Virus record (IMG/VR): IMGVR_UViG_3300033149_001243
Coordinates: 1-21,749 of that record
DNA: 21,749 bases
Source of the DNA: a virus
Reading direction: 5' to 3' (one strand)
The notes beneath the pieces are model-generated. The model was not told the DNA's origin, made no database searches, and saw only the letters and a list, made by a program, of their open reading frames with translations. This document shows, piece after piece, positions 7,101 through 14,983 of this stretch. Made by a program: the position numbers and the translations under genes. Within the stretch, counting starts at the first letter, position 1. The number at the start of each line of letters is the position of its first letter.

Positions 7101-10084
7101 ATAGGTTCACCGTTTGCGTTTAATCCTGTTGATGTTCCACTTAATCCTCTATAGTATAACTCGGGACAAATATTAGGAATTATTTCTCCATCAGGGAGGA
7201 CAGTAGATACTTTAGTACTTTGAGTTACAGGTATACCTACCACCGGATATGATGGTGCAACATTTGAAGCAGTAGAAAAAGGAAAGTTTGACATCTCCAT
7301 ATACACTCCTGCAGGCACATATAAGTTTTGATTAGGATTAGCAGGATCAGGAACGGTAATAAAGTTTTCTTCCTGAACTTCTTTTCGTAATACCGTAGCA
7401 TATACACATGTTCCTACTGCGCCATTAGCATCCGTTTTTACTAGAAGCTTATCTCCCGCCTCTACCTTTTGAGCGTTCTCTCCTTCTAATAAGAAATATG
7501 TAATTACTGTTCCCGGAGCACCTGATGCTGATTCAGGAGAAGTAAAAGAGTTTTTTGCATATATAGTCTCATACCCTTCTTCACTAGGCTTCATCGCAAA
7601 TTTAAAATGCGTAGCCCATCTTGGTGCAACCATAGTCGATGGCATAGTAACACGAGCTTTATTAACTCTATCAGATAGGTAGCATGGAACAAAAATATTA
7701 CTTCCCGATGAACCGCCTCCTTCAGTGGCAGAAATTTGATTACTTGTTATAGGTGTAGTAGCTCTATTCCAATCATCCATATAAATGATTCCCACCTCAT
7801 ATCCTCTATTACTATGTAAACTTTTATTATCAGCAGCATTAATTATACTTGCTCCTAGGTTAGCAAAATTAGGGACTACAACAGCAAAACTTCCTCCCGG
7901 CATTGATCCTGTAGATCCGGTAGGATTAGATATTACAGGAGGTGGACCTGCATTATTAAGGGGGACGTACACCATAGGATGCAACCATAACTTAAATTTA
8001 TTTGGGTCTGCAGGCATCGAATCAAATCCTACAGCCATAGTAGCTGACCCGGGATCTCCCGGCGCAGGACCTGCAGTAGGAGGAAATACTTCCGAAGCAG
8101 ATAGGTATTTATATCGGTATGTTGGTTGTAATGGAGCATCTTGTACGGTTAATGAATACCGTGCATTAATAAGATTAGTTAAATTGTAACCCCCACTTTG
8201 CCCTGTAGCAATAGCCGATGAAGCATTAAACGGCTGCGCAATACCACCTTCTAAGGCTGTTTGTGTTCCGATTGCTAACTGAAAAGCCACACTTGACACC
8301 ATTTCAGTGACACTACTAAAATCTTGAGGCAAAGTCCACCGAAAGTTTACTAGACTCCCCCCTGCAAATGGAGATGATCCGGGAGGATTAGGACCTGCCC
8401 ATGTGTCAAAAGGAAATCCGGGTATATTGGTCCATTGCCAAAAAGGATTAGCCCATCCTATATTAAAGGTTAAGTTTAAAGTAGATCCTGCCGTTAAGGG
8501 TATATTACCAAAATCTATCTCTACTTCATTATTAGGAATATTTGCATAGGTTTGCCCATACACATTTCTGTCGGCTGCAAAAAATGTAGGAGTGGCCGCC
8601 TGAACTCCTAACTCTTTAGAGGTTAAAACGGTGTCATATATAGGCTTAACAATAGAATCAAACTTATCCACTAAATTATACTGTTCTTGATAATTACCAT
8701 ACATCAATCTATTACCCATAATAGTTTGTGCTTTAGCTACGATAGGAACATTGTCATAAAGCCTAAGGATTTCATACTCAGGAAGCACAGTATAAACTTT
8801 ACTGTTATCAAAAGTAATACTGTATGTGCTATTGTTATTAAGGCCTAATTGATTTTTATTAAATCGATCTATAATTTTAATCAGTGAAGTGTCGGAACTT
8901 TTAAACACCACCTCAATGTCTGTCACTAATTCATTTCCTGTTTCAAACAATACTGTTACTGCATTGTATTTATTAATCATCCCCTCGTTTAAATCACTGT
9001 CTTGGCTATAGAAAAAAGGTTCAGGAGAAAAAGCGATTTCACTAAATGATGATAACGCAGAAAACTCTCCACCTTCATATCTATATCTTGTAGCAAAAGA
9101 AATCATTTTATCTTCTATGTAATTTCTCTCAGTTCCGTTATTGCTTAAAGTGATAGTAGGAGAATTTGTTGGTGGCTCTTTAATAACCATTATCTCTTTA
9201 GCGGTGAAATTATCTCCTTCACCACACACGCCACCACCTCCCGGCGGAATTGGACACGTTGTGGTAGGGTTTGTTTGAGGGCCCACAGGTGGGGACACAC
9301 AAGGCTCTCCGTATTGTTTAGTAACATCTATAACTCGTGGAGGGTTATGGTTGTCAGTAAAAAACAAAAAATTATCTATTAGGTTAACCCCTGTAATTAA
9401 ATTGTTGGGGTTGAAATTTAAAGTGGTATTCCATTGAGTGGTACAGGGAATACAATCATATACACTAATAATATGATATATCAAATTTTGACTGTTCACA
9501 TTATAGGATAATATCATATCCATCCTATGTGTATTTTGATAAATAGTATAAGCAGTTCCCGGTGCAGCAAACATATCTCGTGATAAAACTAATACGGTGT
9601 TACCTGTTATAGACGTTACATAAGCAAAGTTATCAGGGTTAGCATCCTCTACAACAATAGCCCCCACCACTGTTCCGTCAGTTTCAAAGGTAGCTCCTCC
9701 GTCTACTAGCTCATTAGGAGATAAAGCTGTATTTGTTCCTGTAACAATCGCTGCTCCCAACGGAGCCCCATCAGGATAGGGGCCCATCCATGATGGGTCG
9801 TGAACAAACCAATAAATAGTTTCATTAGCTTCGTCTGCATATTTACCTATACATGTAGCAAAAGGGCTTAGGTTGGTAGAGTAGGTTTCTCCCGGCAAAG
9901 GGAACGCTATAGAGGGAGTGAGCTCAATGTTTCCTTTTGCATTTTCAACTGAACCGATCTCTGAATTTTCTGTAGACCCGAGCCTTACATTTTGAGCATG
10001 GACATACTCTCCATTCTGAAGTAACCTTTCATCGATAGACTTATTCATTCTACCGGCCACAAAATTTCTTTGAGTCTTTGCCAT
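4190..10084 (-). CDS. Giant tail stabilisation ('muzzle', P22 gp10-like) protein
   Basis: 1964 residues. The N-terminus (AKTQRNFVAGRMNKSIDERLL, then NGEYVHAQNVRLGSTENSE and VENAKGN to about residue 52) is a hallmark I recall from the tail stabilisation proteins of crAss-like and marine flavobacterial podoviruses, related to P22 gp10, which closes the tail below the portal. A conserved core lies near residues 1300-1420 (VLQEDKISYVL, then FFIDEKRGAVLNLRG, MRSWFRDAFNG, GFDPYMNEYVVSL). Residues about 101-183 look like a beta domain inserted between YWFVHDPS and MDMILSYNVNSQ. After about 1430 come Ig-like, Thr/Pro-rich beta segments, then a domain at about 1706-1825 (VGDYVEMIL to LYLIVDIRERQ), and a cysteine-rich tail (CCDCSCGAGNYTC near 1850, ending CTDCG and CT). 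It starts one base after the ring-protein gene stops, so it is translationally close-coupled. The expected C-terminal continuation of this family appears as a separate gene at 259-1050. Confidence 0.8.
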   Translation of the reverse strand: MAKTQRNFVAGRMNKSIDERLLQNGEYVHAQNVRLGSTENSEIGSVENAKGNIELTPSIAFPLPGETYSTNLSPFATCIGKYADEANETIYWFVHDPSWMGPYPDGAPLGAAIVTGTNTALSPNELVDGGATFETDGTVVGAIVVEDANPDNFAYVTSITGNTVLVLSRDMFAAPGTAYTIYQNTHRMDMILSYNVNSQNLIYHIISVYDCIPCTTQWNTTLNFNPNNLITGVNLIDNFLFFTDNHNPPRVIDVTKQYGEPCVSPPVGPQTNPTTTCPIPPGGGGVCGEGDNFTAKEIMVIKEPPTNSPTITLSNNGTERNYIEDKMISFATRYRYEGGEFSALSSFSEIAFSPEPFFYSQDSDLNEGMINKYNAVTVLFETGNELVTDIEVVFKSSDTSLIKIIDRFNKNQLGLNNNSTYSITFDNSKVYTVLPEYEILRLYDNVPIVAKAQTIMGNRLMYGNYQEQYNLVDKFDSIVKPIYDTVLTSKELGVQAATPTFFAADRNVYGQTYANIPNNEVEIDFGNIPLTAGSTLNLTFNIGWANPFWQWTNIPGFPFDTWAGPNPPGSSPFAGGSLVNFRWTLPQDFSSVTEMVSSVAFQLAIGTQTALEGGIAQPFNASSAIATGQSGGYNLTNLINARYSLTVQDAPLQPTYRYKYLSASEVFPPTAGPAPGDPGSATMAVGFDSMPADPNKFKLWLHPMVYVPLNNAGPPPVISNPTGSTGSMPGGSFAVVVPNFANLGASIINAADNKSLHSNRGYEVGIIYMDDWNRATTPITSNQISATEGGGSSGSNIFVPCYLSDRVNKARVTMPSTMVAPRWATHFKFAMKPSEEGYETIYAKNSFTSPESASGAPGTVITYFLLEGENAQKVEAGDKLLVKTDANGAVGTCVYATVLRKEVQEENFITVPDPANPNQNLYVPAGVYMEMSNFPFSTASNVAPSYPVVGIPVTQSTKVSTVLPDGEIIPNICPELYYRGLSGTSTGLNANGEPIYTPMSIPQGTNITIGLRWFKKGALGYTVVGSGTDSQVEWRFHKRYIADQDYNNIIDFFNGMDVHTDMVNEGEKLFVGCSGGVTIDYDPSLAPLTDPTTAWTTPQYDCDSNPCTIFLRWSQTPAGGTDPDNEIQFLVRAGGGTSELNKIECAFNISFQEEVVAFETEGRPANPDLWYEGSDVYPIDVATGSHQGIAANNDVSQVVGTALTGTTGVFNLSFFNCFAFGNGVESYKVNDSLSGRYFLLGQRVTATANEDYRRAHRYADITYSGIINNETNINKSNEFNLGLVNWKSLEDSFGKVQILSGRDTDVLVLQEDKISYVLAGKNLLSDSSGGGTVASVPEVLGTQIARTERFGISNNPESYVEFGLDKFFIDEKRGAVLNLRGSSGQNEQLQVLSEYGMRSWFRDAFNGQLTSSINVYTQKLGGFDPYMNEYVVSLTDRSLFFTPGECDVVISDIETEQDVIACGTTTTFTSPGDLAPMVFWVEFPEDGEGSVGDVSWTFNMTPTDTGAVSEAFIQVQLPIGNDLFPATPIASNTPPNTVTWTKDTPVPTQAYVIITPDPTTMTGAGSFDVNATLNCATPTPINVDTVLYTSQRNCPASNTATYYDPANGPDAVCLVNPLLSWQWQAQNGVIAGNVNQQLIEYFSAWENTATLGNGNIVQDIYQTPIGNDNFPQYPFIPDGWLNPPNAGGGWNDSQWQGLVQGAEAPNVGDYVEMILDLSDLGYIVQGDDTQFTNVNSALNIVFDVNKHSFRYLRTNIDYDRTNRQDAVDLLANSVAINPLGPDFFSWDGQQWVTPAQNGALKYKGVFQMPAPVAPNSDPHLYLIVDIRERQSEWLCHDPGAIGDSTILNEVCCDCSCGAGNYTCYRLQAKTSQYPFTFTVITPGSAPATDTVTLPPYVTEEEGSCITVCSSVYPYLIPGSLPFNADGSQWTVDSIVDITIQSCGDAAGCTDCGTPTVPYTPGTCT
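9536..9784 (-). other. Inserted beta domain in the muzzle protein
   Basis: Residues about 101-183. The pattern is LVDGGATFETDGTVVG, IVVEDANPDNFAYVTSI, LVLSRDMF and AYTIY. It separates two stretches that I recall as nearly contiguous in relatives. It resembles the segment encoded at 11414-11671 and, more distantly, those at 15964-16149, 1446-1604 and 379-570. Confidence 0.5.
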
Positions 10085-10085
10085 T

Positions 10086-11012
10086 TTATTTTATCCACTT
10101 ATCCCTTCCTCGTAGATTCATAAGTAATCTACCCGGATGAATATTACTAATTCTGATTTTTGCATTTCGTAACAAAGCACTCTTTTCTTTTCGTGCTCGT
10201 GATACTATATATTCTTGAACCCCAAGTCTTGATGACACAATAGCATATCTTATATATGCATAAACAAATTCTTCAAATAATTTATTAACAGAAACCTCTC
10301 CATCATTTCCATTCGCCATACCATCTGAAATATATTCAAGGATACATTCTTCATTGGCCATAGTAGAATCAAAATTAATAACACCTGCTTTCTTGTCAAT
10401 AGTAAATGTAGGATTAGCATTAGCTGTTTCTGTATTTAACCCAAAACGTGCTCGGCTATGGTAGTCAAAATACCATGCTCCATCACAGCAGTAACCATAA
10501 ACCCCATTGAACATAGGATTATTTTTATTTAAATAAATACTTTTTTTACTTCCCATGATTCTATCATGGTCTAGCCCTGAGTATTGAGGCATTAATATCT
10601 CTCCGTTTTGAGAAAATAATATCTTGCCTGTGTCATCCTGTAAGTATTCATGAGCACTTGCCACCTGAATATTCTCTGTTAATGGCCTGATATATCCGTC
10701 TTTATATAAAGATATCCTTACCCAATTAACATAATCCGATGGTAATATAAACCGTAATGCCACGTCTACTGTTAATTGTAGAGCTTTGATTTCTTTAAAC
10801 GCATCATAGTTCAATTCTTGTATTGCTCTCTTAGCGTGGAACAATACCTTGTATCTCTCTTCATTGTTAATGATATTATGATTATCATTATACATTAACA
10901 TAAAGTTATTTACAATGTCTTGTAGTTTTACATACTGATATGACCCCCAATTCTCATCTGTAGGAATCGTGCCACTATTAGTGTAATATTGAAATTGAGA
11001 TAAATACGTCAT
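10086..11012 (-). CDS. Tail tubular / head-tail ring protein (P22 gp4 / T7 gp11-like position)
   Basis: 308 residues. The N-terminal half has a helical segment (LQDIVNNFMLMY, then ERYKVLFHAKRAIQELNYDAFKEIKALQLTV, about residues 30-84). It is followed by LRFILPSDYVNWVRISLYKDGYIRPLTENIQ (about 87-118), a signature I recognise from the crAss-like tail tubular proteins that form rings below the portal. The end is basic and helical (FVYAYIRYAIVSSRLGVQEYIVSRARKEKSALLRNAKIRISNIHPGRLLMNLRGR), suited to interface packing. Its ATG overlaps the stop of the preceding gene by one base (TAATG), and the muzzle gene follows after one base, so the three tail genes form one translationally coupled block. Assignment as a ring/adaptor is good; which ring in the stack is not known. 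Confidence 0.75.
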   Translation of the reverse strand: MTYLSQFQYYTNSGTIPTDENWGSYQYVKLQDIVNNFMLMYNDNHNIINNEERYKVLFHAKRAIQELNYDAFKEIKALQLTVDVALRFILPSDYVNWVRISLYKDGYIRPLTENIQVASAHEYLQDDTGKILFSQNGEILMPQYSGLDHDRIMGSKKSIYLNKNNPMFNGVYGYCCDGAWYFDYHSRARFGLNTETANANPTFTIDKKAGVINFDSTMANEECILEYISDGMANGNDGEVSVNKLFEEFVYAYIRYAIVSSRLGVQEYIVSRARKEKSALLRNAKIRISNIHPGRLLMNLRGRDKWIK

Positions 11013-12016
11013 TATTCTTCACTTTGTGTTTCGTTCATATCTTGTGTAGCTCCAAACTTATATATCTCTACTTCTCTAACTGACATTCCTGCGTACTGAA
11101 GTATAAGAGCTATTAGGTCTACCTGATTATCTTCAGGAACTTCAAAGTCTTGATAGTCAGGAGCACTTGCATTAAAGATTGGAGTTGATGCCACTAGGTT
11201 GTATGTCCATTTAGGAGTTTTAGGATAACGTATATATTGACAAATAACATCTCCCTTTTTATTTATAGTTGATGGATATACCGTTGCTGTCTCGGACACT
11301 CCTTCGCTTAATACATAAGCAGGATAAGTTCTAGTAGGAGCAGTAAGCTGAGAACTTGTCAGATTAAATATTTTATATTGACTAACTTTTTCTATCTCAA
11401 CTATATTGTTAGCATCATATATTCTATAGTCCTGCCCCACATAAGGAATCGCACCTGTAGACATAATGTCCGCACTCAAACTTAATTCCGATACTGAGTC
11501 TACTGCAGTAACATAAGCTGTTAGCATAGGGTCTGTAGGAGCTCCTGTTGGGCTTGTATTAACAACAATACTTCCTACCGGTGGAGACTCGGGAATACCC
11601 GGAGCAGTTATCACAAACTGATTTAACGTAGTATCTACAAGTTTACCCGCAACTTCTGCGGTAGTTGTACCACTGTATAGCAACGTAGGATAGAAATATA
11701 ATTTATTAATAAAGTAATAATCAAGAGGCAGATTGTAAAGATTAGCTGTATTAGTAGTGGCCGCAGGCTGATCTAAAACCTGTGTCTTAGCAAAGATAGC
11801 TATATCTTGCTCTATACCATTTTTTATATCAGCATATCCTATCCCTGACTGCCTCATATTTTCTTTATTTATTTGATGATTATAAGAATAAAAGAAATCT
11901 TCAAATATAGAAAGTTGTGCTTGCGTAGCAAACAAGTTAAAGTCAGCAGGCGTTACATATCCATAATTATTTTTATTTAATACAGAGAGGACTGTACTAT
12001 ACACTTCATCAATCAT
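11012..12016 (-). CDS. Tail ring / adaptor protein, crAss-like
   Basis: 334 residues. The N-terminus (MIDEVYSTVLSVLNKNNYGYVTPADFNLFATQAQLSIFEDFFYSY) is a helical segment I associate with a conserved crAss-like structural protein encoded beside the tail tubular protein. The C-terminal part (GDVICQYIRYPKTPKWTY, then PEDNQVDLIALILQYAGMSVREVEIY) resembles adaptor-type interface helices. Residues about 116-200 appear to be an inserted beta domain (GSIVVNTSPTG, AYVTAVDSVSELSLSADI, YRIYD) related to that in the muzzle protein. It starts the tail transcription unit: a TATCTTTG promoter element lies 4 bases before its ATG, and its stop overlaps the next start. A ring or neck protein is the likeliest role. 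The exact position in the virion is inferred from order only. Confidence 0.62.
   Translation of the reverse strand: MIDEVYSTVLSVLNKNNYGYVTPADFNLFATQAQLSIFEDFFYSYNHQINKENMRQSGIGYADIKNGIEQDIAIFAKTQVLDQPAATTNTANLYNLPLDYYFINKLYFYPTLLYSGTTTAEVAGKLVDTTLNQFVITAPGIPESPPVGSIVVNTSPTGAPTDPMLTAYVTAVDSVSELSLSADIMSTGAIPYVGQDYRIYDANNIVEIEKVSQYKIFNLTSSQLTAPTRTYPAYVLSEGVSETATVYPSTINKKGDVICQYIRYPKTPKWTYNLVASTPIFNASAPDYQDFEVPEDNQVDLIALILQYAGMSVREVEIYKFGATQDMNETQSEE
11414..11671 (-). other. Inserted beta domain in the ring protein
   Basis: Residues about 116-201 of the 334-residue ring protein. Its features (G-x-IVVN, AYVTAVDS, LSLSADI, YRIYD) match the muzzle insertion at 9536-9784 in order and spacing. Confidence 0.5.
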
Positions 12017-12020
12017 AAGA

Positions 12021-12028
12021 CAAAGATA
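12021..12028 (-). promoter_or_regulatory. Bacteroidetes-type -7 promoter element (TATCTTTG) of the tail operon
   Basis: On the minus strand TATCTTTG is followed by TCTT and the ATG at 12016, a gap of only 4 bases. A TG lies 19 bases upstream at the -33 position. It would drive the tail block (12016 to about 259) as a leaderless or nearly leaderless mRNA. Confidence 0.68.
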
Positions 12029-12054: not shown

Positions 12055-12408
12055 TTAAGGGGGACAGCAAAACTGAGTAACGGTCACCGACCTAATACTA
12101 ATGGGTTGTCCTATTGGATTGAAACAATTAGGTAATTGCTTAGGCATAGAAATAACTTGACTCTCTCCACTTTGCAGTCTTTCTATTTGTTTAGTCAGAA
12201 AAGTTATCACACTATAATCTCCCGCAGCTACTGCATCCGACAAGGTTAGTTCTGCCCGAACATTACCGTGGTAAACTATCTCTACAGCACTAACACCATT
12301 TGGAATAATAGATACAATATTATCAGCACCTACAATTATTTTTGCCGACTTTGAACCTACTCCTGAAGCTGCATAAGTAGAAGTATTAACAATTAAATAT
12401 TTAGACAT
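12055..12408 (-). CDS. Small paralog 6, putative head decoration protein
   Basis: 117 residues. It begins MSKYLIVNTS like its five neighbours, then has beta-rich segments (AKIIVGADNIVSIIP, AVEIVYHGNVRAELTL), a helix at about 62-79 (GDYSVITFLTKQIERLQ) and a C-terminal strand (ISIRSVTVTQF). Unlike the other paralogs it ends in a Cys-Cys-Pro-Pro tail and has a further Cys at 94. It starts one base after the stop of the preceding paralog (TGA, T, ATG), so the pair is co-translated. Family function is unknown to me; an auxiliary capsid or tail role is inferred from position. It is the last gene before the tail operon promoter. Confidence 0.6.
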   Translation of the reverse strand: MSKYLIVNTSTYAASGVGSKSAKIIVGADNIVSIIPNGVSAVEIVYHGNVRAELTLSDAVAAGDYSVITFLTKQIERLQSGESQVISMPKQLPNCFNPIGQPISIRSVTVTQFCCPP

Positions 12409-12409
12409 A

Positions 12410-12787
12410 TCAAGTTATCGTTATAGTTGCTACTGAAACATTAGCCCCTCCAATATCTACAAAGGGAATTGTTGAGGGGTATTGTCCTGTTGCAGGATCT
12501 TTAGGGCCACCGATAGTATTCATTTCAGCCACTGTCTCCCAATCTTCCCCTGCAGTTGTTACCCGGTTATGGGCACTTGCAAATTTTTCTATAAACCAAT
12601 TAGCCCATTTATATTCTTCCGCTATTACTACAGCTCTATTTAAAGTGATAGTAGCTTTTTTTCCATTGGAATAATAAATAAACAAAGTGGTTAGAGTATT
12701 TCTCGTGTCCTGCATAATACCTACTATACCATCTACTGATAAGTATGTAGGATATCCTCCTGTTCCTATTATAAAATATCTTCCCAT
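12410..12787 (-). CDS. Small paralog 5, putative head decoration protein
   Basis: 125 residues, the longest of the array. It begins MGRYFIIGTGG, a relaxed form of the shared start (Arg-Tyr-Phe instead of Lys-Tyr-Leu), followed by LSVDGIVGI, the strand pair TLFIYYSNGKKATITL, a helix at about 54-73 (YKWANWFIEKFASA) and an extended C-terminal insertion (WETVAEMNTIGGPKDP) before the final strand ANVSVATITIT. The start is fixed by alignment to its paralogs and lies 5 bases after a TATCTTTG promoter element. An intrinsic terminator lies just upstream, so this gene opens a separate transcription unit with paralog 6. Function inferred only. Confidence 0.6.
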   Translation of the reverse strand: MGRYFIIGTGGYPTYLSVDGIVGIMQDTRNTLTTLFIYYSNGKKATITLNRAVVIAEEYKWANWFIEKFASAHNRVTTAGEDWETVAEMNTIGGPKDPATGQYPSTIPFVDIGGANVSVATITIT

Positions 12788-12792
12788 AACTA

Positions 12793-12800
12793 CAAAGATA
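12793..12800 (-). promoter_or_regulatory. Bacteroidetes-type -7 promoter element (TATCTTTG) of paralog 5
   Basis: On the minus strand TATCTTTG, then TAGTT, then the ATG at 12787. The sequence from the element to the ATG differs by one base from that before the GNAT-like gene. The U-tract of the terminator at 12803-12827 ends right before it, so terminator and promoter are back to back. Confidence 0.7.
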
Positions 12801-12802
12801 AT

Positions 12803-12827
12803 AAAAAAAGGGGACTAATGTCCCCTT
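12803..12827 (-). terminator. Intrinsic terminator between paralogs 4 and 5
   Basis: On the minus strand the stem AAGGGGAC / GTCCCCTT (8 perfect base pairs, loop ATTA) is followed directly by a run of T residues. It lies 24 bases after the stop of paralog 4 and just before the promoter of paralog 5. Confidence 0.88.
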
Positions 12828-12851
12828 CTTCACCTAAGTAGCGATATAACA

Positions 12852-13172
12852 CTAAGCTACCACAATACCTGTAATAACTGCCGGTGCCCCTGCAGCATCA
12901 ACTAAACCTGATAAACTAACGTCATATTTTGGGTTAGTCCAAGATGTTTGAAGAGCTGCAATTATAGAGTCTTGAACACGGTCTCTTGCGCTGTCGTCAG
13001 AAGCTGCAAATGCTGCACCAAAAGTAATTGTTGCCACATCTGTTGCTGCCGCTGAACCCGCATAAGTTACTGTAACCTCAGTGGTACTAGCTTGTTCAAC
13101 GATTATAACACCGTCTACAGCTAACAACTGTGGTGTTGCCCCGTCAATCGGGAATGATAAATACTTTTTCAT
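12852..13172 (-). CDS. Small paralog 4, putative head decoration protein
   Basis: 106 residues and the most canonical member of the array. MKKYLSFPIDG is followed by LLAVDGVIIVEQA, TEVTVTYAG, VATITFGAAF, a helix at about 58-76 (SARDRVQDSIIAALQTSW), then YDVSLSGL and VITGIVVA. Small proteins with this M-x-KYL...IITGI pattern are, as I recall, frequent next to capsid genes of aquatic flavobacterial phages, where their function is not established. It is a single-gene unit: its promoter element lies at 13214-13221, leaving a leader of about 35 bases, and a strong terminator follows at 12827-12803. Such isolation suits a protein needed in its own copy number. Confidence 0.65.
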   Translation of the reverse strand: MKKYLSFPIDGATPQLLAVDGVIIVEQASTTEVTVTYAGSAAATDVATITFGAAFAASDDSARDRVQDSIIAALQTSWTNPKYDVSLSGLVDAAGAPAVITGIVVA

Positions 13173-13213
13173 AATAAAAAAAATTGAAAAATTTTGTGAG
13201 ACTATTCTCGCTA

Positions 13214-13221
13214 CAAAGATA
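13214..13221 (-). promoter_or_regulatory. Bacteroidetes-type -7 promoter element (TATCTTTG) of paralog 4
   Basis: On the minus strand TATCTTTG is preceded by TG 19 bases upstream. The ATG at 13172 is 41 bases downstream, so unlike the other four TATCTTTG elements this one would leave a real 5' leader. The leader holds a weak 4-bp hairpin (GAGA-ATAG-TCTC, 13198-13209) and a T-rich run before the start. Confidence 0.6.
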
Positions 13222-13235
13222 ATAAAATATATTTA

Positions 13236-13535
13236 CTATGCAGAGACTATATCTCCGATAGCATACTTAGAAGGAATAGGGACATCAATAAAAACCTCAG
13301 TATAGGAAGTTTGCTCTGCTCTTATAATAGCATCGTTAATTATGTCTACCAAAGCTCCGTCAAAATCAATACCATTAACCCCATCTCTTTGAATGTTCCA
13401 CTCTTCGCTTGCTGTTACATAAGGAACAGAACTTGCGTGAATAGTATTCACGTCAAACAATACCACTAGGTCACATGCATTTACATTTAATACCCTGTCT
13501 CCATTCGCTGTTTTAAATATTAAATACTTAACCAT
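13236..13535 (-). CDS. Small paralog 3, putative head decoration protein
   Basis: 99 residues. MVKYLIFKTANGDRVLNV is followed by the strand CDLVVLFDV, a middle that lacks the clear second strand of the others (EEWNIQRDGVNG), then a helix at about 57-75 (DGALVDIINDAIIRAEQ) and the strands VFIDVPIP and IGDIVSA. The helix-turn-strand end closely matches paralog 2 (ITNAIERL, then YVDVEFPG). It starts 4 bases after the stop of paralog 2 and probably shares the mRNA begun before paralog 1. Structural role inferred from position. Confidence 0.6.
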   Translation of the reverse strand: MVKYLIFKTANGDRVLNVNACDLVVLFDVNTIHASSVPYVTASEEWNIQRDGVNGIDFDGALVDIINDAIIRAEQTSYTEVFIDVPIPSKYAIGDIVSA

Positions 13536-13539
13536 CTTA

Positions 13540-13848
13540 TTAATCTACTAAGGTTACTGAATCTATTATTACACCCGGAAACTCTACATCCACATACGAC
13601 TGAGTATATCCTGCTTGAAAGAGTCTTTCTATTGCATTAGTTATGACATTGCGAGTAGCCTGCTCATCAGCACTAAGACTCCCCCCTGAAGTCACAATAA
13701 GTACTTTGGAACTAGCTGCCGAATTGTTCTCTGAAAATAATAAATACATTCCGGCGGGAGAAATAATCTCCATTATGCCTGACAAACTCTCAGCTTTTAC
13801 CAACATCTTGCCTGTAGTAGTTGTATTAAATCTTAAAAACTTACTCAT
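13540..13848 (-). CDS. Small paralog 2, putative head decoration protein
   Basis: 102 residues. MSKFLRFNTTTTGKMLVKA, then the strands LSGIMEIISPAGMYLLFSE and KVLIVTSGG, a helix at about 59-79 (ADEQATRNVITNAIERLFQ) and the C-terminal strands SYVDVEFPG and IDSVTLVD. It starts two bases after the stop of paralog 1 and is closest to paralog 3 in its C-terminal half. No catalytic motif, signal peptide or membrane segment is visible. Confidence 0.6.
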   Translation of the reverse strand: MSKFLRFNTTTTGKMLVKAESLSGIMEIISPAGMYLLFSENNSAASSKVLIVTSGGSLSADEQATRNVITNAIERLFQAGYTQSYVDVEFPGVIIDSVTLVD

Positions 13849-13850
13849 AG

Positions 13851-14210
13851 CTATGTGGCTCTTTGTACTTCGGTTAATACTAGTGTGAATACTACCGGTC
13901 CTATCTTGACCCTAATACCATCTTCATTACCTACATCTGCATACACATCGTTGTTTCCTTCTGCACATAGCTCTGTGATAATGTCCGCAACATAAGACAC
14001 TAACTCGTCAGCCGCACCTCCTAGGTCAGGAGTAAATGTTAAAAGTATTTTAAAATCTTTAGAGTCTCCATAATAAAATACTAAATCAAAATCTCCTCCC
14101 CCCGTATTATCAGAAGTCATCATTGTCATTTTACTTACGTTAATAAGCACATGTTGCGATGAAGCTGCCGGAGCAAGTGATGGGGAATAAAACCTTAAAT
14201 ATTTATTCAT
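13851..14210 (-). CDS. Small paralog 1, putative head decoration protein
   Basis: 119 residues. MNKYLRFYSPS, then HVLINVSKMTMM, FDLVFYYGDSKDFKILLTF, a helix at about 65-84 (AADELVSYVADIITELCAE) and the strands DVYADVGNEDGIRVKIG and FTLVLTEV. It has a longer N-terminal loop and C-terminus than paralogs 2-4. The start is fixed by the shared MxKYLRF motif and lies 5 bases behind a TATCTTTG promoter element. It opens the first array unit (paralogs 1-3). Function inferred from position behind the capsid gene. Confidence 0.6.
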   Translation of the reverse strand: MNKYLRFYSPSLAPAASSQHVLINVSKMTMMTSDNTGGGDFDLVFYYGDSKDFKILLTFTPDLGGAADELVSYVADIITELCAEGNNDVYADVGNEDGIRVKIGPVVFTLVLTEVQRAT

Positions 14211-14215
14211 AAAAA

Positions 14216-14223
14216 CAAAGATA
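14216..14223 (-). promoter_or_regulatory. Bacteroidetes-type -7 promoter element (TATCTTTG) of paralogs 1-3
   Basis: On the minus strand TATCTTTG is followed by five T residues and the ATG at 14210. The element sits 10 bases beyond the stop of the preceding gene. No convincing -33 TTG or TG is visible; a T8 run lies just upstream. Confidence 0.62.
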
Positions 14224-14233
14224 CGAAAAAAAA

Positions 14234-14983
14234 CTATTCGTCTTTGTTTAAAATCTTTTCAAGAAGTTTTAATGATTCAATTCCATCGTCACTCTTTAGA
14301 TAGGCAGATACAATCATATTAACATCTTCTCCCATAGGAACAGTAAGCATTCTTTTTTTGTTTGCTTTAGTGTTGAAATGAATCGCTCCTCCTTTCTTTT
14401 CCACCAATAATCCTTCTTCAAAAAACTGCTGAACTCTTGACTGATGCTTTAAGTCAGGGTCACTTACCACATTTAGAAATTCTTCCGGGTAAGTTCTAGC
14501 ATAAACTAATATATCTCTCTTTAGTTCTGCTGTGCTCATCTTAGCAACATTATGATTAAACAAGACTCTTGAAATGCTTTCCACTTGATCTAAGGATAAT
14601 TGCCTAGCCTCTATTAAAGCATCTACTTCTACATTGAGTTGTTCTACGTGCTCTCCCGCATCTTTTTCTGAATCTAATCTTTCAAATCTTTTTCCGTATA
14701 GGGGATGGTTTTCTAAAAACTGTTGTAACACTTGATTGGTCTTGGGTACTCTTAAAAATCCATCTTCAAAAATAATAGGTTCTAATACCACATGCCCATC
14801 TTGTTCATCAACATAAATACTTTTTTGGTTACGAGCATAACGAAGCTCTCTGTTTACTCCTGTCTCGTCATCAAAATGTAATAAGGGAAATCTGTTTGTG
14901 TGTCTTGTTGGCAGCATATAAGATAAAGGTGCTGCGTTCCTTGTTAGTCTGTAGGTTTTATCTACGAATTTTTCTGTTTTCAT
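14234..14983 (-). CDS. Conserved phage protein of unknown function between capsid and decoration genes
   Basis: 249 residues, charged, soluble. The N-terminal part is beta-rich (FVDKTYRLTRNAAPLSYMLPTRHTNRFPLLHFDDETGVNRELRYARNQKSIYVDEQDG), followed by EPIIFEDGFLRVPKTNQVLQQFL. The C-terminal half is helical, with a short coiled segment (about 105-180), and ends in KKRMLTVPMGEDVN...SDDGIESLKLLEKIL. I recall very similar proteins next to the capsid gene of many marine phages, but know of no assigned function; it is best treated as a structural or assembly protein. It lies behind the terminator that follows the capsid gene and has no TAnnTTTG element, so it is probably expressed by read-through. 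A TATTAAA box is 10 bases before the ATG. Confidence 0.6.
   Translation of the reverse strand: MKTEKFVDKTYRLTRNAAPLSYMLPTRHTNRFPLLHFDDETGVNRELRYARNQKSIYVDEQDGHVVLEPIIFEDGFLRVPKTNQVLQQFLENHPLYGKRFERLDSEKDAGEHVEQLNVEVDALIEARQLSLDQVESISRVLFNHNVAKMSTAELKRDILVYARTYPEEFLNVVSDPDLKHQSRVQQFFEEGLLVEKKGGAIHFNTKANKKRMLTVPMGEDVNMIVSAYLKSDDGIESLKLLEKILNKDE

Follow-up and report, generated by a model that had tools for sequence, protein, structure and literature searches.

Organisation of the locus

The window analysed here, by which we mean the whole stretch of 21,749 bases, is an IMG/VR virus record (IMGVR_UViG_3300033149_001243) of a marine phage with its main genes on the minus strand, and the subject of this work is an array of six small genes that spans positions 14210 down to 12055 of that strand. 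The gene order is terminase, portal, a gene at the scaffold position, capsid protein, p249, the six small genes, and connector and tail genes. Scaffold, connector and tail are labels by position, and the capsid label is based on phrog_13704 (virion structural protein) and a VirFam note in the record of Callevirus Calle_1. The initial annotation placed the array behind the capsid gene, and it is located downstream of that gene but not directly behind it, since p249 intervenes (14234–14983, minus strand, 249 residues, no assigned function, phrog_34748 with E 1.6e-28). On the other side the array is followed by the connector gene, conn334 (11012–12016, minus strand), which matches phrog_14543, a virion structural protein.

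All six adjacent small genes of 99–125 residues that had been proposed were found as open reading frames (ORFs) with an ATG start and a spacing of 1–64 nucleotides (nt). Named by their length in residues, they are g119 (13851–14210), g102 (13540–13848) and g99 (13236–13535) in unit A, g106 (12852–13172) in unit B, and g125 (12410–12787) and g117 (12055–12408) in unit C, all on the minus strand and all matched by the family profile described below. The product of g125 has a long insert behind the helix of the fold and that of g117 a Cys-Cys-Pro-Pro tail; these extensions had been called unique, but they are also found in the orthologs of the window group and, diverged, in locus L002 (related loci are designated by L numbers). 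The ratio of nonsynonymous to synonymous substitution (dN/dS) against the relative L170 is 0.245, 0.219, 0.230, 0.287, 0.217 and 0.221 in the order given, and this range of 0.22–0.29 indicates purifying selection on all six genes.

The six proteins constitute one family

Pairwise similarity within the window is weak, and the best match of g119 in the same genome is not below E 0.79. The family profile was therefore built from other phages, as a hidden Markov model (HMM) of 52 representatives of 57 members, all from outside the window group. It matches all six window proteins with E values from 7.4e-7 to 1e-23, the highest score being that of g106. The shared start M-x-[KR]-[YF] that had been pointed out begins all six proteins, and the similarity extends beyond these N-terminal residues, as the HMM with the first 8 residues removed still matches all six (E 4.2e-5 to 4.7e-20). 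The real score was reached by none of 300 shuffles per protein, neither in the full-length version, where the shuffles left the first 8 residues in place, nor in the trimmed one. In a second control with non-family ORFs of 80–180 residues (975 scored of 1057) the best score was 8.1 bits, three exceptions aside, compared to 24.4–79.0 bits for the six members, and the three higher-scoring ORFs were judged to be missed members of the family. By profile comparison the six array genes are thus true paralogs.

For members outside the window, the start was shifted to an internal M-x-[KR]-[YF] if there was one, and a relaxed version of this motif served as a filter for the core set, so the conservation of residues 1–4 is partly by construction, which the trimmed test avoids. 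Conserved columns run through the fold and include Trp78, Tyr37, Ile103 and Val35. The array diverges faster than its flanks: in L171, where the counterpart of g119 is cut by the contig end, the array proteins are 42–81% identical to those of the window, compared to 87% for the connector and 93% for the next gene. The HMM misses some members, namely a 562-residue protein in L056 and L058 and a protein of 125–128 residues in L176, L177 and L180.

AlphaFold2 models of g106 (mean predicted local distance difference test score, pLDDT, 94.3) and of the hardest case g119 (75.4) have the same order of strands and helix, although the two models are not fully independent since both fold alignments include other family members. 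The beta-beta-helix-beta layout of the initial annotation has to be replaced; the models show five strands, one helix and then two or more strands, and the first ten residues of g106 make up strand 1 (mean pLDDT 96). These two proteins, the best- and the worst-matching of the array, share one topology and also the same two nearest viral models, both ranking A0A516LYE6 and A0A516LU06 of BFVD first. The predicted fold of these two entries is clearly similar, A0A218MM61 and A0A218MLL6 are also similar, and A0A7S9STV3 of Virus NIOZ-UU157 is weakly so; all five are uncharacterised and carry no function.

No significant family match was obtained for the six proteins in Pfam, PHROGs, NCBIfam or PADLOC, and Foldseek against the PDB gave no solved relative, with a best E of 0.71 among the best 50 of 57 matches. 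A sequence search of the PDB with the family profile and two insert-bearing members gave a sole match at E 0.062, to 3fPizza6-SH. Comparison by VIA-align gave a best Z of 4.4, to PH domains, and 3.4 to a chain of the T7 tail complex, values below the informative level of the tool. Members from L057, L017 and L022 and g106 found nothing by tblastn in 50,697 phage records with E limits of 0.01–0.1. No publication naming the family or the array came up in the literature, which is not proof of absence.

Promoter boxes and probable transcription units

Bacteroidota promoters are described as having a -7 box with the consensus TANNTTTG (PMC6847099). In the window the box TATCTTTG is found on the minus strand 5 nt before the start codon of unit A (14216–14223), 41 nt before that of unit B (13214–13221), 5 nt before that of unit C (12793–12800) and 4 nt before that of the connector gene (12021–12028). 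The box is thus present within 75 nt upstream of g119, g106, g125 and the connector gene, and not of the other three members, which gives the grouping 3+1+2. There are six copies in the window, all on the coding strand; the two remaining ones are located within the connector gene and near the end of the window. The expectation for both strands is 1.59, and six or more copies were found in 1 of 100 shuffles. The terminator that had been noted is present as a terminator-like hairpin of 12 pairs after g106 (12831–12804, minus strand), with a T run that abuts the -7 box of unit C.

The same arrangement is seen in the relatives, where a box lies within 75 nt of 70 of the 79 first genes of the arrays, of 8 of the 12 later genes that follow a gap above 35 nt, and of none of the 42 later genes that follow a shorter gap. 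Among the flanking genes it precedes 125 of 135 connector genes, but only 4 of 135 p249 genes and none of 129 capsid genes (shuffles, 29 of 665). The distance from box to start is 22–41 nt in 66 of the 70 boxed first genes, and is less regular in the window. Boxes before most first genes, together with hairpins, are a sequence signature that would fit independent expression. The proposed promoter-split grouping is borne out by these Bacteroidota boxes, and going by them the groups of three, one and two genes are real units. A scan of the window for σ70 promoters, with 26 sites against 19.0 expected (standard deviation 3.9), was not informative on this point and was not used. Separate dosage control of the units, also suggested initially, is plausible from the boxes, although the doubled block of L085 (see below) has no box of its own.

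Occupancy of the site in related phages

The site in relatives was taken as the interval between p249 and the connector gene, and as both were used to define it, their flanking of the array is not itself a result. Two of the capsid-based fetches comprise the best 80 matches each. The interval is complete in 68 of the 80 loci of the capsid-based sample, and 62 remain after merging of those with near-identical p249; no member is present in 30 of these, one in 23, two in 4, three in 4 and four in 1. Among 136 capsid-distinct phages, the window included, 56 have no member, 58 have one, 12 have two, 4 have three, and four, six (the window) and eight members are found in one phage each and nine in three. 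The larger set mixes capsid-based and member-based fetches with named phage records and is enriched for members, so the capsid-based sample gives the fairer distribution. A further fetched locus, L278, did not enter the analysis. The counts of eight for L180 and three for L056 are one too low, owing to members that the HMM misses.

On a quick capsid tree of the 136 phages, which has several long branches, presence or absence changes at least 21 times and copy number 37 times. Five clusters with capsid proteins at least 97% identical contain arrays of differing size, most clearly L004/L006 and L018/L240, and the cluster with L173 and L176 is probably an artefact, since the HMM misses the protein of 125–128 residues. 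Behind p249, L006 has a box, a leader and one gene that L004 lacks, with closely matching flanks, and both share the terminator hairpin, the connector box and the connector start; L150 of the same cluster has a different member at the site. The locus thereby shows a trait of decoration proteins, an accessory gene near the capsid gene that is absent from close relatives, as well as a trait of morons, insertion into an operon across related phages.

Where the interval of a fetched locus is complete, no family ORF is found outside the site (363 family ORFs, from 272 sequences that overlap in part), and in 57 records with a filled site the family matches are, by coordinates, only at the site. The capsid protein of the window matches 85 of 50,697 phage records, of which 68 are from Flavobacterium phages, 15 from Cellulophaga, 1 from Maribacter and 1 uncultured. 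As the relatives infect Flavobacteriia and contigs occur in Bacteroidota assemblies, we infer a host in the Flavobacteriia or, more widely, the Bacteroidota. A lineage of Bacteroidota phages, represented by many contigs in IMG/VR, commonly carries the family at one fixed site.

A second lineage (L066, L173, L175, L176, L179 and L180) has an array of eight or nine genes with a similar series of gene lengths. The member used for the search is 100% identical in L066, L173 and L175 and 65–72% identical in L176, L179 and L180, and as the length series is kept despite this divergence, large arrays can also be stable.

Loss, doubling, swapping and relocation of blocks

Between p249 and the connector gene, blocks of one to three genes are gained, lost, doubled and exchanged. 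L002 has counterparts only of g106, g125 and g117 (35.7, 79.0 and 19.9 bits). The three-gene block is present twice in L085, with the gene order kept and gene-by-gene matches of 49.8, 37.6 and 88.1 bits, and the second copy lacks a box in front of it. L084 has a two-gene unit in place of the one-gene unit B, flanked by the same box and terminator; in bins of 40 nt the identity is 95–100% up to the box, 32–72% in the replaced stretch and again 95–100% from the terminator, and the other five array genes are 98.4–99.7% identical at the DNA level. L083 has a diverged allele of the one-gene unit with 87.9% DNA identity, compared to 95.5–99.7% for the other array genes. Both genes of the L084 unit recur in order in L048, L078 and, at another site, in L276. 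The exchanged blocks are as a rule headed by a -7 box, with the other virion genes nearly unchanged, and these small gene blocks are the pieces exchanged.

Members occasionally occur elsewhere in the genome. Whole-record searches of 33 IMG/VR records with an empty site, many of them fragments, gave members at other places in two. In the phage of L061 a single member, preceded by a -7 box of its own and followed by a hairpin (L275, 5729–7773), is located just upstream of a chaperonin gene (Cpn60_TCP1, E 6.4e-57), and in the phage of L252 a two-gene unit of the type in L084, L078 and L048 lies about 13 kb from the capsid gene, its two proteins matching the L084 unit in order with 67.6 and 39.2 bits. 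The repeated duplication and variability that had been proposed agree with the copy numbers of 0–9, the block swaps and the doubled three-gene block, and the support for variability is strong.

Large members and a domain shared with virion proteins

Some members are considerably larger, about 285 residues in L050 and L076 and 562 and 504 residues in L056 and L058. As we read the alignment, the additional residues are inserted after strand 1, ahead of the remainder of the fold, and the profile matches three of these large frames only from position 10–12 on. An accessory domain is present twice in the large members of L050 and L076 and once in the 562-residue protein of L056 and L058. The same domain is found in 65 connector ORFs, 7 tail ORFs and 1 capsid ORF of the fetched set, which is partly redundant. 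In the window it occupies residues 116–200 of conn334 (11417–11671, minus strand, E 1.3e-15) and residues 116–182 of a 1964-residue protein (9539–9739, minus strand, E 4.1e-21). No name was found for this domain, which thus recurs in the connector, the 1964-residue protein, the capsid protein of L046 and the array inserts. The family is placed in the particle mainly because the insert domain is common to other virion proteins, and its distribution would favour the connector and tail over the head. The insert repeats of the 562- and 504-residue members have a pattern that we take to resemble carbohydrate-binding modules; Pfam gave no significant hit and this is not claimed.

Possible function of the array

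The reading that we favour, with reasonable though not high confidence, is that the array is a moron-like cassette locus that holds almost wholly one undescribed fold, and that its products are optional late virion proteins. For the products we infer this virion role, and they are possibly capsid decoration. The head-decoration role in the initial annotation would draw support from the site among virion genes, the absence beside near-identical capsids and the shared insert domain; it goes unsupported by the scan of capsid positions described below, and none of the tools used assigned the proteins to the capsid. The conserved fold would attach to a surface that is repeated over the particle, with the capsid as first choice and the neck or tail as second, and the insertion points, namely the loop that follows strand 1 and the stretch behind the helix, should then face outward and differ between phages, where they might for example stick to particular surfaces or alter the stability of the particle. 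Separate promoters could let each unit be made at its own level. We put forward, tentatively, an extended form in which the particle surface is a display platform, a mosaic of up to nine paralogous decoration proteins from exchangeable cassettes, reshuffled by swapping at matching promoter and terminator sequences with the capsid gene untouched.

Several results weigh against the reading as optional virion proteins. The array genes have dN/dS values close to those for the capsid gene (0.229) and the 1964-residue protein (0.237), so no special selection is seen. Columns of the capsid, p249 and connector proteins that track the presence of the array (7 rows dropped from the scans) showed a strong association before kinship correction and nothing convincing after it; among 46 column states, prefiltered by the uncorrected p value, the best had 5.9 of 16 pairs one way and 0.2 the other, and was judged not to survive multiple-testing correction. 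Nor do the three neighbour proteins differ in length between phages that have the array and those that lack it in a way that would tell the two groups apart. The family profile had no hit in five named relatives searched whole, namely MW202828 (uncultured podovirus), an Elemovirus, Callevirus Calle_1, Maribacter phage Panino and Bacelvirus phi46:3; Calle is described as podovirus-like (PMC8776804). The gap between p249 and the connector gene is 83–86 nt in the first three of these, and other kinds of genes occupy the site in some relatives, such as unrelated small genes in Panino and phi46:3. Two phages have members away from the site, as described above, and no solved decoration protein was matched among the best 50 of 57 Foldseek rows. 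Three of the four boxes in the window lie 4–5 nt from the start codon, which would leave almost no leader if transcription starts 4–5 nt behind the box, and most Flavobacterium johnsoniae transcripts are reported to have one (PMC6847099). By the description in PMC2629481, morons play no part in morphogenesis.

The products could instead belong to the neck or tail, as accessory proteins such as small fibre adaptors or receptor-binding modules, and not to the head, an explanation that overlaps the favoured one and that we regard as rather unlikely. The array precedes the connector and tail genes, and the ORFs with the insert domain are mostly of these two kinds, but the site holds no member in 30 of the 62 loci of the capsid-based sample (from the best 80), and we know of no receptor-binding set with 0 to 9 diverged copies of about 100 residues.

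We consider it unlikely that these are classical morons, that is non-particle proteins acting in or on the infected cell, for example in superinfection exclusion or counter-defence, with the site as a tolerated insertion point. The anatomy of the locus is that of a moron, and proteins with a type IX secretion sorting domain (L063, L157) and an HNH-type endonuclease (L262) occur at the site, as do the small genes of Panino and phi46:3, in addition to the two ectopic cases. Against this, nearly all filled sites hold one fold, with up to nine diverged copies per genome, the inserts are shared with connector and tail proteins, and no match was found in PADLOC, a library that lists defence rather than counter-defence.

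Internal head proteins that are packaged and ejected are improbable: the position between the capsid and connector genes and the strong M-x-K-Y start with variable bodies recall those of T4, which have a conserved targeting N-terminus and a variable body, but here the bodies are homologous by the trimmed profile and not unrelated, the start is strand 1 of the fold and conservation is also found at the four residues named above (no cleavage signal was sought).

Relation to known systems

The Hoc and Soc proteins of T4 and gpD of lambda are small, added late and wholly or partly dispensable, and Hoc has outward domains. They differ from the array in coming as one or two types per phage with known binding sites. 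Another system comparable to the optional virion proteins favoured here is Dec of phage L, an extra major virion protein whose gene sets this phage apart from P22, the assembly genes being otherwise described as similar and Dec as binding to the exterior of the particle (PMC8022706). Compared by description, Dec is a single gene unlike the 0–9 paralogs found here in units with their own boxes, and it was not among the best 50 of 57 Foldseek rows. The 'ant moron' of P22-type phages also has a fixed place in the late operon, a content that ranges from absent to six genes and usually independent expression, but it carries immunity and exclusion genes of differing kinds, as opposed to nearly all one fold (PMC2629481). 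In its behaviour the locus resembles that of a moron, and it plausibly acts as an optional decoration system of the Dec kind. What is new is the family, a single site dedicated to one fold in 0–9 copies, and a small gene block as the exchange piece.

If the products are virion proteins, the array would be a natural modular system for changing the particle surface, and L004/L006 and L018/L240, with near-identical capsids and different arrays, offer a ready comparison for an optional virion role. If they are not, the family would be a sizeable new set of host-acting proteins. The gene block from promoter box to terminator as unit of exchange is testable in either case.

Other genes at the site and contig assignments

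The array site of L063 (2597–3859) and L157 (727–2034) holds proteins of 420 and 435 residues that carry at the C-terminus a sorting domain of type IX secretion (PF13585, E 4.6e-14 and 4.2e-15; TIGR04131), suggesting that these phages encode proteins to be exported to the surface of the host. L262, a contig from a Lacinutrix bin, has at its otherwise array-less site a gene of NUMOD4/HNH endonuclease type (9297–9944, 215 residues, PF07463 with E 9.7e-14), and this could be a homing gene that drives exchange at the site. The contigs L254, L255, L263 and L264 were found in bins labelled Aenigmatarchaeota, Aliivibrio, Maricaulis and Woesearchaeota, and are probably mis-binned phage DNA.

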